The notes below the pieces were generated by a model. It saw only the letters and a list, made by a program, of their open reading frames with translations. It was not told the DNA's origin and made no database searches. From the IMG/VR virus record IMGVR_UViG_3300013758_000002, positions 1 to 21,319 of that record: 21,319 nt of DNA, one strand, 5' to 3'. Positions 938-18,321 of this stretch are shown here, one piece after another. Within the stretch, counting starts at the first letter, position 1. The number at the start of each line of letters is the position of its first letter. The translations under genes and the position numbers were made by a program. Origin of the DNA: a virus.

Positions 938-1017
938 TCTGCTGCTCCTCTCGGACTGCTCGCGTTTAGGTAGGTGAGATAGAAGATTTGTCTTGGAAGT
1001 TGAAGAGCAAAAACTTA

Positions 1018-1036
1018 CTAGAGCTAAAAGCTCTAG
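1018..1036. repeat. Perfect hairpin beside the iteron array
   Basis: CTAGAGC-TAAAA-GCTCTAG, a 7-bp perfect inverted repeat with a 5-base loop. It lies in a locally AT-rich stretch (about 961-1063), next to the tandem GTTAATG repeats and the GCTTAG iterons. It is not followed by a T-run, so a terminator is less likely than an origin-associated structure. Confidence 0.6.
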
Positions 1037-1064
1037 GTGAGTAGAGAGTGGTTAATGGTTAATG

Positions 1065-1153
1065 GTGCTTAACTTTCGCTTAGAAAGTGCTTAGAAATTT
1101 CGTAAGCAAAACCTAAGCAAAACCTAAGCGGGTGCTTAGAAAGTGCTTAGACT
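1065..1153. repeat. 11-bp-phased iterons, candidate replication origin
   Basis: Eight copies of a GCTTAG-type core lie on one side of the helix. Three direct units start at 1065, 1076 and 1087 (best form GTGCTTAGAAA). Three inverted units have AAGC ending at 1107, 1118 and 1129 (AAGCAAAACCT tandem). Two direct units start at 1132 and 1143. Spacing within each group is exactly 11 bp, about one helical turn. The last unit covers the stop codon of the initiator-like gene. An exact GTGCTTAG recurs at 1596-1603 and GCTTAG at 1564-1569, at that gene's start. Iterons beside an initiator gene, with an AT-rich flank and a hairpin, are the classic layout of a phage or plasmid origin. The function is inferred. 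Confidence 0.75.
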
Positions 1154-1563
1154 TTTTGGCACAGGTCACAGTCCGGATTGATGATGCCGCGATCGACGTG
1201 GTGCCGCTTGTGCGCCGATCTTTGGCCGCCGATCGACCCTGACTTCCGCTTCTCTTGGATGCGCTCTGATATCTCCGCGCTGGACGGGTTGTGCTCCAGG
1301 TAGTGGTGCAGCTCGAAGTGGCCTTTGCCGTGGTCTTCAACGAGTCCAGCGTCGATGAGTTCCTTGCGCGCCTTGGGGCCTTTCGAGTTCAGGTCAATCT
1401 CTTGCACGACGCCGTCGGATCTGTCCTCATTGGCGGTCGTGAGTAGGGTGACGTGGAGTCTGAACGCTGCGTCCGAGAGCCCCCGGATCTTCCGATGCCG
1501 GGGGTACTCGTTTGTCAGCGTGATGTAGGGTCTTGGGTCCTTGGATCTGGTGTCCTGGCTCAT
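1147..1563 (-). CDS. Replication-initiator / replisome-organiser-like protein
   Basis: A 138-residue protein. Residues about 10-85 read as a winged-helix domain (start YITLTNEYPRHRKIRGLSD, then AAFRLHVTLLT), like the N-terminal domain of phage replisome organisers and DnaD-like proteins. The C-terminal third is charged and basic (ERIQEKRKSGS), with a CDLC and histidines near the end that could bind zinc. An 11-bp iteron array overlaps the gene's end, and more copies of the core sit at its start, which supports origin binding and possibly autoregulation. The ATG at 1563 is 2 bp after the previous stop; there is no clear SD, and a GGCGG/CCGCC hairpin lies just upstream, so reinitiation is plausible. 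The role is inferred from fold and context. Confidence 0.65.
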   Translation of the reverse strand: MSQDTRSKDPRPYITLTNEYPRHRKIRGLSDAAFRLHVTLLTTANEDRSDGVVQEIDLNSKGPKARKELIDAGLVEDHGKGHFELHHYLEHNPSSAEISERIQEKRKSGSIGGQRSAHKRHHVDRGIINPDCDLCQKV

Positions 1564-1565
1564 GC

Positions 1566-2303
1566 TTAGGCGGCTACCGCCAAGGGGTATCCCTTGTGCT
1601 TAGGGTCATCCATGAGTTCCTCATCCCATGCGGCCGGCGGCAGCCATCCTTTCTGGCGGGCCATGCTGCGGGAGCGGGCCGTGCTGATCCTGCTTCGGTG
1701 GTCGGTCCCGACGCGCGGGCGATTCTCCAGTTCGATGTACAGCTTCGATACGGCGCGGGCTGTTGACGCCTGAACGGAGGTGTGAAGCATTGTCCTGTGC
1801 AGGCTGCTTGCGTTGACGCCGATCCTGTCCGCGACGTAGCTGATGGAGTAGCCGAGCCAGACGAGCCCTTGGATGCGTCGTAGCGTTCCGACACTGTCCA
1901 CGGATACGGCGCCGGACAGGGCTTGCAGTGAGGGCTTGACTGCCAATACTGCGTCGTGAACATGGCGCTCGACCCTCGCCCGCGGAGGCATGTTGCGGGA
2001 GGGGTCGCCGTAGATGATCTTGCCAATTGTGGCGTTTGAGACTCCGGCCAGCTTGGCTATGCGCTTCAGTCCTATGCCGTAGCTGGCCAGGGTTTTGAGG
2101 TGGCTGCGGACTTCGCTCGCGTCGACCCTCCCAGTGTCGTATCTGCCGTAGGCCTTCAGCTTCCGGCGGCGACTCTCCCTGGACGCTGCCGCATCTCCGC
2201 ATGGAGTGCATCGGCACTTGTCCAGGATGTACGCCTCTGGGGTTCCGTGCTGATGGTTCGCCCTCTTGTGGGTGCAGTCGATTGGAGTGCGCGCCGCGCT
2301 CAT
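1566..2303 (-). CDS. Actinophage zinc-finger/HTH DNA-binding protein
   Basis: A 245-residue protein. The first about 45 residues hold a Cys/His-rich segment (CTHKRANHQHG, then KCRCTPCGDAA) likely to bind zinc. Two helix-turn-helix segments follow: GIGLKRIAKLAGVSNATIGK (about residues 77-97), and a second one around SYVADRIGVNASSLHR. It resembles a common actinophage family annotated only as HTH DNA-binding protein; targets are unknown. A longer frame exists, but the ATG at 2303 overlaps the stop of the HNH gene as ATGA and has GGAAG upstream, so this start is preferred. Its place just before the initiator-like gene suggests a role in early control or replication. Confidence 0.75.
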   Translation of the reverse strand: MSAARTPIDCTHKRANHQHGTPEAYILDKCRCTPCGDAAASRESRRRKLKAYGRYDTGRVDASEVRSHLKTLASYGIGLKRIAKLAGVSNATIGKIIYGDPSRNMPPRARVERHVHDAVLAVKPSLQALSGAVSVDSVGTLRRIQGLVWLGYSISYVADRIGVNASSLHRTMLHTSVQASTARAVSKLYIELENRPRVGTDHRSRISTARSRSMARQKGWLPPAAWDEELMDDPKHKGYPLAVAA

Positions 2304-2890
2304 CTGGTGATCGCTTCCAGTGGCGTCGCGCCACGTCTGATGCGGGCGTGGGCCGTCCAGTAGCCGATACCCAGCTCTTGGCACCATTCGGAGAGCGACT
2401 GGGTCCGGCCGTTGAACTGAATGCGGATTGTGTGACGCATATTGACGGACTGCTCATGCTTTGTTGCCCACCGGCAATTGGTGGGCTCATAGTTCCCGTC
2501 ATTGTCGATTCGCTCGAGGGATGTGCTGTCAGGACGTTCGCCCATGTCGGCGTAAAAGTTCTCGAAGGATTCCCATCGCTGGCATATGCGAATGCCGCGT
2601 CCGCCATAGTTGGGCCAAGAGGGATTGTTGGCGTTGTTGCATCGCTGGCGCATTGCTACCCATGAGGTGTGAGTGGGCGTCCGGGTCATTCCATGGGTGA
2701 GTTTGACTTCCCGCTGGCGCTGGCGGTGATAGCAACCACATGACATGACCTGGCCGTGGCGCAGACGCGTCCCTGTGACGATTAGCTCCGTGCCGCAGTC
2801 GCAGCGGCTGAGCCATCCGCCGGTGACAGATCCGAGTATTTCCAGTCGCCCGTAGCGTGTTTGCTCGAGCGGCTTCTTAGCCTTTACCAC
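2300..2890 (-). CDS. HNH homing-type endonuclease
   Basis: A 196-residue protein from a GTG at 2890. An N-terminal domain has a CDCG and a CGC (a likely zinc site). It is followed by NYGGRGIRICQRW, FENFYADMGERP, LERIDNDGNYEPTNCRW and a KHEQSVN tail: the conserved core of phage HNH nucleases, with D and N of the beta-beta-alpha metal site in RIDNDGNY. The C-terminus (SLSEWCQELGIGYWTAHARI) looks like a DNA-binding HTH. Such genes are usually free-standing mobile elements. The GTG follows GGGAGAG with 4-base spacing; a longer frame to 3034 exists, but its extra 48 codons look unlike protein. The SD lies in a hairpin (separate entry). It sits downstream of the methyltransferase gene, next to what may be a gene remnant. 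Confidence 0.8.
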   Translation of the reverse strand: MVKAKKPLEQTRYGRLEILGSVTGGWLSRCDCGTELIVTGTRLRHGQVMSCGCYHRQRQREVKLTHGMTRTPTHTSWVAMRQRCNNANNPSWPNYGGRGIRICQRWESFENFYADMGERPDSTSLERIDNDGNYEPTNCRWATKHEQSVNMRHTIRIQFNGRTQSLSEWCQELGIGYWTAHARIRRGATPLEAITR

Positions 2891-4834: not shown

Positions 4835-5223
4835 CTCGAGCTCCTGAATTCGTCGGTGAGGATCTTGCACGGTTCGTGGGTGCAGCTGGCCCACAAGGTG
4901 AGGCCGTGGGTGTCGTCGTGCCAGTCGGAGAGTCGACGGCGGTTCGTCTCGTGGTCTGGGACGTCCATGTCGTCGTAACCGGCACTGCCGCAGTCGTCCT
5001 CGTGGTGGTAGCCGAGCGCTTCGAGGTCATCTTTGTCGATGTCAAAATCAACTTCGACGTCGACGGTCTTGGATGTTGAGAGTGTGCGGCCCTTCCGCCA
5101 CTGGTAGTCCCGGTTCCATTCCTCCCGCGGGAGTTCCCTGACGGTTTTCTCTTCCTCCCTTTTGGCGGCTTGGATGGTTTTGCGTATGGCGACGAGCTTT
5201 TCCGCCGGTGTCTGCGCGCTCAC
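4831..5223 (-). CDS. Hypothetical acidic protein
   Basis: A 130-residue protein of unknown function between the sliding clamp and the methyltransferase. The N-terminal 40 residues are a charged helix (KLVAIRKTIQAAKREEE), possibly coiled coil. The middle is strongly acidic (DVEVDFDIDKDD, then HHEDD). Two cysteines near the end (CTHEPC) could be a half zinc site. The GTG at 5223 overlaps the clamp stop as GTGA; the open frame upstream of it is arginine/proline/histidine-rich shadow sequence of the clamp gene and is not included. I do not recognise the family. Confidence 0.7.
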   Translation of the reverse strand: MSAQTPAEKLVAIRKTIQAAKREEEKTVRELPREEWNRDYQWRKGRTLSTSKTVDVEVDFDIDKDDLEALGYHHEDDCGSAGYDDMDVPDHETNRRRLSDWHDDTHGLTLWASCTHEPCKILTDEFRSSR

Positions 5224-6302
5224 TTGGGGAGCCTGACGGGCATGATGAGGTGCTGCAAGCCGGGGGCCCCGGTGACGAGGATTGGTTTGGCAAGGTTTTC
5301 TTGGAATCCGAAGATGATCTCCGGGTTGGGTGTGACGCTGATGGTCCATGCCAGGTATCCGGGGTTGACGGCGAAAACTACGTCGGTTCCGTCCGCTTTG
5401 CAGGGCAATGATTCTTGGCCTTGGGCGTCTTCCCCTGTCCCGGCGTCAATAACCATGGTGTCACCGGTGGTGGTGATGCGGACGGGTGTGTTGCGTTCGG
5501 CGACGAGTGAGACTCGGGCGAGGATCTCCGCGAATTCTGCCCGGTCCACCGTGATTTCGGTGTGGTTGTTTTTGGGGAAGAGTGCCTTGATTTTGGGGTA
5601 GTCGCCGTCGATGACAATGGAGGTAGTGGCCCGGTTCCCGGTGCGGATACCAATCAGGTTGCCGTCGGCGAGGACTTGCGCTTCGCCGGCCAGTGTTTTG
5701 ATGGTGTCGTTGAGCCATGATCCGCGGACGAGCATGTCAATGTCGTCCCCGGCGGGCAGCCATGGGATGGTGACCTCAGCCAAGCGGTACCTGTCGGTGG
5801 TGCGCATGGTCAGGTCGTTGCCTTCGGAGGTGAGGTGGACGCCTTTGAGGATGGGTCCTGAGTCGTCGGTGGATGCGGCGCCGATGATCTGGCCCACGGC
5901 CGCCGCGAACGTGTCCCCGTCAATGGTGCCCACGGTGGGAGGCAGGTCAGGCATGGGCGGGAACTCTGAGACGGGCATCGCGGCCATCGTGAACACGGCG
6001 GAACCCGCGGTGAGGGTGGCAGTTCGTTCGTCAACGGTGACGGTCACGGTTTTCTTGCCGAACTTGCGGATGATGTCCGTGAAGAGCCGGGCCGTGAGTA
6101 GGACGGTCCCGGGTTCGGTGACGTCGGCGGCGACCTGGGTGCGGGCCGATTTCTCGTAGTCGAACCCTGAGATGCGGAGCCCGCCGGTCTGCGCCTCAAT
6201 GAGCAGTCCGGAGAGGATGGGGACGGGCGGCCTTGGGTTGATGCCCTTGGATGCGAACTGTGCGGCGTCGGCGAGCGCGTCGGCGGTGAGACTGAATTTC
6301 AT
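5220..6302 (-). CDS. dnaN: DnaN-like DNA polymerase III beta sliding clamp
   Basis: A 360-residue protein, close to the usual 360-400 of bacterial beta clamps. The start MKFSLTADAL, the segment PVPILSGLLIEA (domain I), the central SGPILKGVHL and TTDRYRLAEV (domain II), and the end LIMPVRLPK all match the beta family; the last matches the LLMPMRL-type terminus. The protein would form a ring that tethers a polymerase to DNA and recruits partners with clamp-binding motifs. No polymerase gene is in the window, so it may serve the host polymerase or one encoded elsewhere in the phage. The ATG at 6302 overlaps the previous stop as ATGA; a long upstream open frame is arginine/proline-rich shadow. 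Confidence 0.92.
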   Translation of the reverse strand: MKFSLTADALADAAQFASKGINPRPPVPILSGLLIEAQTGGLRISGFDYEKSARTQVAADVTEPGTVLLTARLFTDIIRKFGKKTVTVTVDERTATLTAGSAVFTMAAMPVSEFPPMPDLPPTVGTIDGDTFAAAVGQIIGAASTDDSGPILKGVHLTSEGNDLTMRTTDRYRLAEVTIPWLPAGDDIDMLVRGSWLNDTIKTLAGEAQVLADGNLIGIRTGNRATTSIVIDGDYPKIKALFPKNNHTEITVDRAEFAEILARVSLVAERNTPVRITTTGDTMVIDAGTGEDAQGQESLPCKADGTDVVFAVNPGYLAWTISVTPNPEIIFGFQENLAKPILVTGAPGLQHLIMPVRLPK

Positions 6303-6571
6303 GCGGTCCTTCGTTCGGTGGTGGTGGCGGTCATCCATGCGGTACGGGCGATTTGGAGTTCTCCGGCGGCGTCGGTGACGTGGATTTCGACGGCCCGGAT
6401 GTTGCGGGCGGTCGCGTCGGTGTCGCCCCCGTACTTGGTGGCTTCGGCGTGATCGGTTTGTGCCCACCGGAGGCGGTAGTCCCATGCGTCTTTGATGCGG
6501 ACGGCTTCTTCGTACCGGTTTTTGAGGATCTGGGACTCGGTGGCGGGTGGCCGGCGGAGCGTCGTTTTCAT
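6299..6571 (-). CDS. Hypothetical small helical protein
   Basis: A 90-residue protein of unknown function directly upstream of the clamp gene. It is mostly charged helix (ESQILKNRYEEAVRIKDAW, then the segment to EIHVTDAAGELQIART), consistent with a helical hairpin or coiled coil. The ATG at 6571 overlaps the stop of the upstream gene as ATGA, and its own stop overlaps the clamp ATG in the same way, so the three are translationally coupled. A longer frame reaching 6853 is rejected because its extra N-terminus is shadow of two neighbours. Confidence 0.7.
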   Translation of the reverse strand: MKTTLRRPPATESQILKNRYEEAVRIKDAWDYRLRWAQTDHAEATKYGGDTDATARNIRAVEIHVTDAAGELQIARTAWMTATTTERRTA

Positions 6572-6786
6572 GCGCCGACCCTGATTCCGTGTTGTTCGAT
6601 GACAGTGTCGGGGATGACCCTGGACTTGACCTTGCCCGTGGAATGCCGGTAAATGTCCATGGCTTTGGCGAGTGCGTCTTTGCAGGGCCGGCAGGTTTGG
6701 GTTCCGTTGCGCAAATGCCGGTAGTAGGCGGACCTGTCCCCACAGTTGGGGTAGACACTGGGCCCGTCGGGTGTTTTCCGGGTCAT
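6568..6786 (-). CDS. Small zinc-binding-type protein
   Basis: A 72-residue protein. It contains a Cys-Gly-x-x-x-x-Y-x-R-H-L-R-x-G-x-x-x-C-x-x-C pattern (about residues 15-35), seen in many small actinobacterial and actinophage proteins with an HTH-like helical pair. The rest is basic (IYRHSTGKVKSR), which suits nucleic-acid binding. No precise function is known. The ATG at 6786 overlaps the upstream stop as ATGA. Confidence 0.65.
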   Translation of the reverse strand: MTRKTPDGPSVYPNCGDRSAYYRHLRNGTQTCRPCKDALAKAMDIYRHSTGKVKSRVIPDTVIEQHGIRVGA

Positions 6787-17202: not shown

Positions 17203-18321
17203 ATGGCATCCATTCAGAAGCGCGGCCCACGCAAGGACGGCAGCTACAGCTACCAAGTCCAATGGCGCGACCGGGACACCGGCCAGCCCGAACGCTGGAC
17301 CTTCAACACGCCCGAAGAAGCCGAAACGTGGAAGCGCCTCATCTCCAGCAACGGCGAATCCCTCAAGCAGGCCGAACGCGTAGCAGGCGACGGGAAACTC
17401 ACCGGCCCCACACTCGCTGAGATGATGGCCACGCACATTGCCGAGCTCACCGACGTCGGCCCGTACCAGACCAACCGCTACACCCGCGACATCAAAAACC
17501 ACTTCGCCGGAACCATTGGCGGCCGCAAAGTCACTGCACTCGCGCATGAGGACATCGTGGCATGGATCAAACACATGCAAGGCAAGGGACTGTCCGCCAA
17601 AACAATCGCCAACCAGCACGGATTCCTGTCCGCCGCGCTGACTACGGCCGTCCGCAAAGGTGTCCGCCCGGACAACCCCTGCAAGGGCGTGAAACTTCCC
17701 AAGAACACTGCCACGGATGATCCCATCCGGTTCATCGAACGCGCCGAATGGGACCGGATCATCGCCCACATGGACGCCCACTTCATCCCGTTCTTCCAAC
17801 TCCTGGTCGGCACCGGGCTTCGCTTCGGCGAGGCGACCGCTCTCGAGGCCAAGGACTTCAAGCTTGATGGGCCCACGCCCACCGTCAACATCACCAAGGC
17901 GTGGAAAGAGAACGGCGACGGCGGTTACTACATCGGCCCGCCCAAGACGAAACGGAGCAAGCGCACAGTGTCCCTGGCGCCGTCCACGGTCGATGCCATC
18001 CGGGAAGCCATTGCAGCGTCCGGCAAAGGCTACGTGTTCACGCTCAAGCGCGGCGGCGTCATGCGGTCAGGATCAACATTCAACCGGGCATGGAGCCCGG
18101 CACTGAAGGCGGCCGGGATACCTAAGGCGGAATGGCCGCGGATTCACGACTGCCGGCACAGTCACGCGTCATGGATGGTCGCGGCCGGCATGGAGATATT
18201 CCACCTGTCCAGACGCTTAGGCCACGAGTCGATCACCACAACGATGGACCGGTACTCACATCTGCTCCCAGACGCCCAGTTCGTCGGAGCCAACATCGCC
18301 CAAAAGGCCCTCGAAGGTTAA
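17203..18321 (+). CDS. int: Tyrosine integrase
   Basis: A 372-residue tyrosine recombinase. The N-terminus (about 1-60) is an arm-type DNA-binding region, residues 70-160 the core-binding SAM-like domain (LAEMMATHIAELTD and onward), and the rest the catalytic domain with R207 (TGLRFGEA), a K in PKTKRSKRTV (about 248-254), H315 and R318 (HDCRHSH), H341 (LGHES) and Y351 (MDRYSHL). It should integrate the phage at the host tRNA/tmRNA-like site. No SD precedes the ATG at 17203; TAGACT at 17189-17194 could be a -10 that places the start of transcription at or near the ATG. It lies adjacent to attP and convergent with the lysis genes. Confidence 0.96.
   Translation: MASIQKRGPRKDGSYSYQVQWRDRDTGQPERWTFNTPEEAETWKRLISSNGESLKQAERVAGDGKLTGPTLAEMMATHIAELTDVGPYQTNRYTRDIKNHFAGTIGGRKVTALAHEDIVAWIKHMQGKGLSAKTIANQHGFLSAALTTAVRKGVRPDNPCKGVKLPKNTATDDPIRFIERAEWDRIIAHMDAHFIPFFQLLVGTGLRFGEATALEAKDFKLDGPTPTVNITKAWKENGDGGYYIGPPKTKRSKRTVSLAPSTVDAIREAIAASGKGYVFTLKRGGVMRSGSTFNRAWSPALKAAGIPKAEWPRIHDCRHSHASWMVAAGMEIFHLSRRLGHESITTTMDRYSHLLPDAQFVGANIAQKALEG

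Follow-up and report, generated by a model that had tools for sequence, protein, structure and literature searches.

An 11-bp phased repeat array beside a short initiator gene is very probably a phage replication origin, and its core sequence appears to follow a C-terminal finger of the initiator

An array of eight evenly spaced repeats in an actinobacterial virus fragment from IMG/VR (21,319 bases, referred to as a whole as the window) is very probably the start site of viral DNA copying, and the C-terminal finger of the neighbouring initiator protein and the repeats change together among related phages, which suggests that the finger reads the letters of the repeats. A preliminary description of the window had proposed the array as an origin. 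Comparison with about a hundred relatives strongly supports this proposal, since the array is conserved after the DNA-binding segment of the initiator, and the conserved synteny of array and initiator is best accounted for by a replication origin. The module is real and origin-like, a variant of origins of the lambda-O and RepA_N types that has a short initiator together with what appears to be a testable recognition code. The features of the window are listed in Table 1.

Table 1. Features in and around the repeat array of the window
Feature	Position	Strand	Description
Iteron array	1065-1153	.	Eight TAAGC/GCTTA cores; candidate binding region for the initiator
Lowest-GC 150-bp window of the record	977-1126	.	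36% GC against 61% overall
138-aa initiator	1147-1563	-	Winged helix, long helix, C-terminal finger; PHROG_3926, E 2e-20
Finger-coding segment, residues 109-135	1159-1239	-	GGxxS insertion and HxxxH-x9-CxxC; proposed core reader
7-bp tandem repeat ACCATTAACCATTAACCA (gene strand)	1049-1066	-	Abuts the last core; proposed unwinding or helicase-loading element
Perfect hairpin	1018-1036	.	8-bp arms, 3-base loop
ORF2, 111 aa	602-937	-	Helical domain and Cys-pair tail; conserved array neighbour in most short-initiator loci

The positions of exact 5-mers confirm the eight cores, the direct-inverted-direct order and the exact 11-bp phasing that had been described. GCTTA starts on the plus strand at 1067, 1078, 1089, 1134 and 1145, and TAAGC (GCTTA on the minus strand) at 1103, 1114 and 1125, which gives three direct, three inverted and two direct cores on the plus strand, with a step of 11 bp inside each block and a total span of 1067-1149. 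The impression that this is more regular than chance would allow is borne out by counts of identical 6-mer pairs: the stretch 1040-1160 holds 19 at a lag of 11, whereas 2,000 versions of it with shuffled dinucleotides, scored at all lags from 7 to 39, gave a maximum over all lags of 8 (mean 1.25). At other lags, no 90-bp window across the whole 21.3 kb exceeded six such pairs. The core at 1145-1149 includes the stop codon of the initiator gene, in agreement with the reported overlap. The AT-rich flank reported alongside is also present, and so is the hairpin, with arms of 8 bp and not the 7 bp originally given.

A search for the repeats beside the same gene in related phages had been named as a check on the proposal, with a lack of conservation near homologues as a refuting outcome. 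The comparison did not refute it, since a phased array stands past the DNA-binding segment of the initiator in nearly every relative compared. Glutamicibacter phage BIM BV-113 and the Arthrobacter phages TripleJ, Kukla, MargaretKali, KBurrousTX and Isolde have the same short initiator gene, separated by about 200-300 bp (with one small annotated ORF in MargaretKali) from another short ORF, and these gaps carry phased arrays whose core varies by phage (TAAGC, TTAGC, ATGGC, ATCGC or GCGGC). The initiator of Mycobacterium phage Nadezda is a single protein of about 308 aa, and its GCTAAGC repeats lie within the initiator gene, just past the winged-helix segment. In most relatives, an array phased at 11-12 bp stands directly 3' of the winged-helix coding segment, in a non-coding gap in the short-initiator phages and within the initiator gene in the long-initiator phages; the place of the array is therefore constant whether the DNA is coding or not. 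Across 37 non-redundant short-initiator loci, identical 5-mer pairs at lag 11 average 6.8, compared to 0.28 in control windows drawn from the same loci, and 97% of these loci have at least two. Long-initiator loci show lag peaks at 12 as well as 11, the lag-12 signal coming partly from 6-bp repeats, and in some of them the automatic scan found no clear phased core. The block order plus-minus-plus accounts for the entire array in 20 of 40 loci and for a portion of it in nearly all others, and in 22 of 40 short-initiator loci the first core contains the stop codon of the initiator. Searching viral and genome collections with single proteins yielded few additional loci. No turning point of GC skew was found at the array in three complete relatives.

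The initiator-like character attributed to the gene is supported by its match to PHROG_3926 ('replication initiation protein'), which covers profile positions 2-128 of 312; the full-length profile includes a C-terminal part, and the window protein aligns to the first 128 positions only. The protein also matches PHROG_2447, and both families are matched by all 56 aligned relatives. A Pfam search of the window initiator at E values up to 1 returned no family, RepA_N (PF06970) included, and RepA_N is likewise absent among the Pfam matches of the 56 relatives. An AlphaFold2 model (mean pLDDT 88) consists of a winged helix (about residues 8-92), a long helix (95-123) and a C-terminal segment. Structure comparison with the PDB gave weak matches to winged-helix domains, among them RepA_N plasmid initiators (4pql, 4pt7, 5kbj and 4pta; Z 5.8-6.2, not above unrelated winged helices), and a sequence search against PDB chains gave no relevant match. 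The histidines and cysteines of the finger (H118, H122, C132 and C135) are invariant, and this HxxxH/CxxC arrangement may bind zinc.

The core classes found among the phages are AAGC, TAGC, TGGC, CGGC and TCGC. In a first alignment by core, a four-residue insertion before the finger was present in all AAGC loci and in no other short-initiator locus. The final criterion was the length of the spacer between an HDYxxHQ motif and the first His of the finger, applied to 59 non-redundant finger-bearing loci that drew on added viral contigs and Micrococcaceae prophages; core class was called automatically from phased 4-mers, with labels that merge some variants and with one label assigned by hand (L104, TCCC to TCGC). 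A 25-residue spacer is found in 17 of 17 AAGC loci and in one TCGC locus, Asn before the first finger His in 16 of 16 TCGC loci and in one AAGC locus, and Thr in the form xHxTNH in all six CGGC loci, while the remaining loci have TAGC, TGGC or GACA cores. Two loci, L029 and L104, have both the Asn and the 25-residue spacer, yet belong to different core classes. The spacer rule predates the prophage loci, and the Asn rule was formed during their collection. One short-initiator locus with an AAGC-class finger (L096) comes from a contig that is assigned to Fictibacillus arsenicus (Bacillota) and hence not to Actinomycetota; either the host range could be wider or the label could be wrong.

The partial Mantel correlation of core with finger, given the winged helix, is 0.43, a value that none of 2,000 permutations reached, compared to 0.06 for core with winged helix given the finger, and on a tree of the winged helix only the core changes at least 14 times. 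Since the core covaries with the finger and, with the finger accounted for, hardly with the winged helix, the idea that a winged-helix protein binds the array was refined toward the finger. Individual loci illustrate the pattern. For example, the winged helices of L004 (TGGC) and of L026 and L158 (AAGC) are 84-85% identical and their cores differ, and those of L020 and L043 (TAGC) are 86-92% identical to those of L013, L018 and L156 (AAGC). Independent pairs agree in five of five cases for AAGC and spacer and in about four of four for TCGC and Asn, with none opposed, numbers that are too few for significance alone. The prophages L157 and L159 have a near-identical finger and array and belong to different winged-helix lineages, which suggests that finger and array move as one module. 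The same terminal finger (KRSAHTRHH...CKYC) is also seen in a GIY-YIG/NUMOD3 homing-endonuclease-like protein (L184, 889-1653, plus strand), the gene of which has a neighbour that looks like nrdF, and many Micrococcaceae genomes have comparable matches to the finger alone. A finger at the end of a homing endonuclease fits a portable DNA-binding module.

Finger-coding end and array are adjacent, and genetic linkage could thus produce part of the covariation. The DNA identity of finger and array was compared to tell linkage from selection, but the gap-tolerant measure gave inflated values. It is conceivable, although rather unlikely, that linkage accounts for the pattern as a whole, with recombination shifting the array as one block with the 3' part of the initiator gene while reading is left to the winged helix or specificity is irrelevant. 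This would agree with the position of the finger-coding end and with the sharing of finger and array by L157 and L159 across differing winged helices. However, the same finger features accompany the same core across winged-helix lineages (at least five independent pairs for AAGC and about four for TCGC), and reading by the winged helix would make the recombinants L157 and L159 non-functional; the same problem arises for L004 and L026, where an 85% identical winged helix goes with a different core.

The remaining readings give the array another function altogether. As an operator array, it would hold sites for a transcriptional regulator of the downstream genes (the initiator itself or a phage repressor), and replication would start elsewhere. 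Operators typically have phased repeats in both orientations, the site lies within an early-gene operon, and many relatives carry a conserved element, CGTCACCTAAGTAACGCG, past the array. Nevertheless, we regard this reading as improbable: long-initiator phages have the array within the initiator gene rather than at a gene start, the DNA ahead of the initiator gene shows no enrichment of cores, the family of the protein (PHROG_3926) takes its name from replication initiation, and the neighbours are replication and recombination genes. A centromere-like (parS) or packaging site has very little to recommend it beyond the fact that short direct-repeat arrays act as parS in extrachromosomal mycobacteriophage prophages (PMC7157519), given that the window has an integrase-like ORF at 17203-18321 (identified by inspection) and no parA was noticed in it, that annotated relatives have no terminase gene next to the array, and that the constant neighbour of the array is the initiator.

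Directly past the last core, many loci have a tandem repeat of 5-7 bp that is A/C-rich on the gene strand, with units ACCATTA, ACCAAC or AACCAG, and ACAGAT, CAGAGA or CAGAATA in long-initiator genes. The ACCATTA repeat of the window is absent from the preliminary description and is more conserved than the hairpin. Strong 5-7 bp tandem runs occur in 54% of short-initiator and 67% of long-initiator loci, compared to 10% of control windows, and 7-bp repeats within coding sequence are out of codon step, which argues for a role at the DNA level. The repeat may serve as an unwinding or helicase-loading site. In some long-initiator relatives, such as L150 and L124, telomere-like runs (CCCAACCCAACC and CCCGACCCGACC) replace the short tandem repeat. 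Hairpins like that of the window lie past the array in 14 of 56 short-initiator loci, compared to 4% of control windows, and are an enriched but optional feature. The element CGTCACCTAAGTAACGCG, between array and ORF2, is matched at 13 or more of its 18 bases in 31 of 56 loci and in 11 of 1,253 control windows; its counterpart in the window (962-979) is degenerate, with 10 of 18 bases matched, no better than controls. A stretch related to it is also seen inside the long-initiator gene of L044. A search for structured RNA in the gap gave no Rfam match in 17 sources.

The two GCTTAG copies reported at the start of the initiator gene are present (1564-1569 and 1598-1603), and both are carried by the 3' end of the gene directly upstream (1566-2387, minus strand), which codes for a 273-aa HTH-containing protein of unknown function (PHROG_1590, E 1.5e-53). 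The autoregulation inferred from these copies is unsupported, because cores are not conserved upstream of homologous initiator genes, where they number 0.36 per locus compared to 0.46 in control windows, with no enrichment. Further along the window, the second half of a large ORF (5220-6758, minus strand) resembles a sliding clamp (beta subunit of DNA polymerase III), and an annotated protein of this kind is encoded near the initiator in phage Isolde.

Downstream of the array, ORF2 has a confident structure model, no convincing fold match in the PDB and at best a weak link to a PHROG; that its product is a helicase-loading partner is a guess. The possibility that ORF2 is the detached C-terminal domain of the long initiators is unsupported, as the ORF2 profile is unmatched in long-initiator proteins. 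As ORF2 is unlike the C-termini of long initiators, 'split initiator' is a description of layout and not proof of descent.

Computation shows that the array exists and is conserved next to the initiator, that the tandem repeat is there and that core and finger covary, and the account that best explains them can be put forward with considerable confidence. The replication origin of the phage would be the region 1049-1153. The 138-aa protein, bound to the cores with their 11-bp phasing, would form an ordered multimer that follows the DNA in three blocks, with general DNA contact and assembly provided by the winged helix and long helix and with base specificity provided by the C-terminal HxxxH/CxxC finger. 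The choice of core would be set by the length of the linker before the finger and by the residue beside its first His. The multimer would then melt the adjoining AT-rich, A/C-rich ACCATTA repeat, where the replicative helicase would be loaded, perhaps with the aid of the ORF2 protein.

In the open-access literature, no paper was found on this array family or on the relation of finger and core, and no experimentally mapped origin was found for these integrating actinobacteriophages. The possible new principle, which we hold to be about evenly balanced between right and wrong, is a two-part initiator, shared by a large family of mainly actinobacterial phages, in which a general winged helix is joined to a swappable HxxxH/CxxC finger, a simple code for the core is made up of the linker length and a single flanking residue, and the short-initiator gene ends at a free-standing, non-coding origin with a separate downstream partner protein. 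The anatomy described here makes such origins recognisable and is usable across about a hundred records, and it comes with a falsifiable rule that ties a small finger to the DNA letters read. If the rule is true, origins could be predicted from protein sequence alone, the ability or inability of given phages to cross-replicate would be accounted for, and the module would be a source of origin parts for plasmids in Arthrobacter and its relatives.

Several known systems share parts of this arrangement. The prophage origins of mycobacteriophages that have been studied experimentally are of other types, and the authors of that work identified no repeated motifs in the regions near repA that they searched (PMC7157519). 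In the oriC of B. subtilis, strand-specific single-strand motifs (DnaA-trio/DRE) lie beside double-strand initiator sites (PMC10201434). By inspection, TnnT pairs (the motif of PMC10201434) also occur in the complement of the ACCATTA, ACCAAC and AACCAG repeats; the ACAGAT and CAGAGA repeats of relatives lack TnnT, and this is a resemblance only. A possible likeness to the Phage_rep_org_N and DnaD-like replisome organisers of phages lies in the four of 56 relatives that match PF09681 (best E 2e-4) and the one that matches PHROG_186, whereas the window protein does not match PF09681 and the short form has no C-terminal domain. The RepA_N protein Rep of pSK41 has an N-terminal winged-helix domain of about 120 residues, and the Rep boxes lie centrally in rep, between the parts that code for the DNA-binding and C-terminal domains (PMC5703833). 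The likeness to RepA_N may lie in the N-terminal winged helix and in the placement of the repeats, with RepA_N structures among the weak fold matches; the window initiator differs in having no RepA_N Pfam match, in its additional HxxxH/CxxC finger and in a gene that ends at the origin. In lambda the origin lies inside the initiator gene (PMC7466680), and the lambda-O type of iteron origin shares with the present one repeats at regular intervals at the initiator gene, next to an AT-rich tract. Lambda O with ori-lambda, and the Stx-phage origins, are among the closest known systems; no sequence relation to O was found. Unlike ori-lambda, the array described here has cores phased at 11 bp with an inverted block, it is non-coding in short-initiator phages, and its specificity apparently resides in the C-terminal finger.
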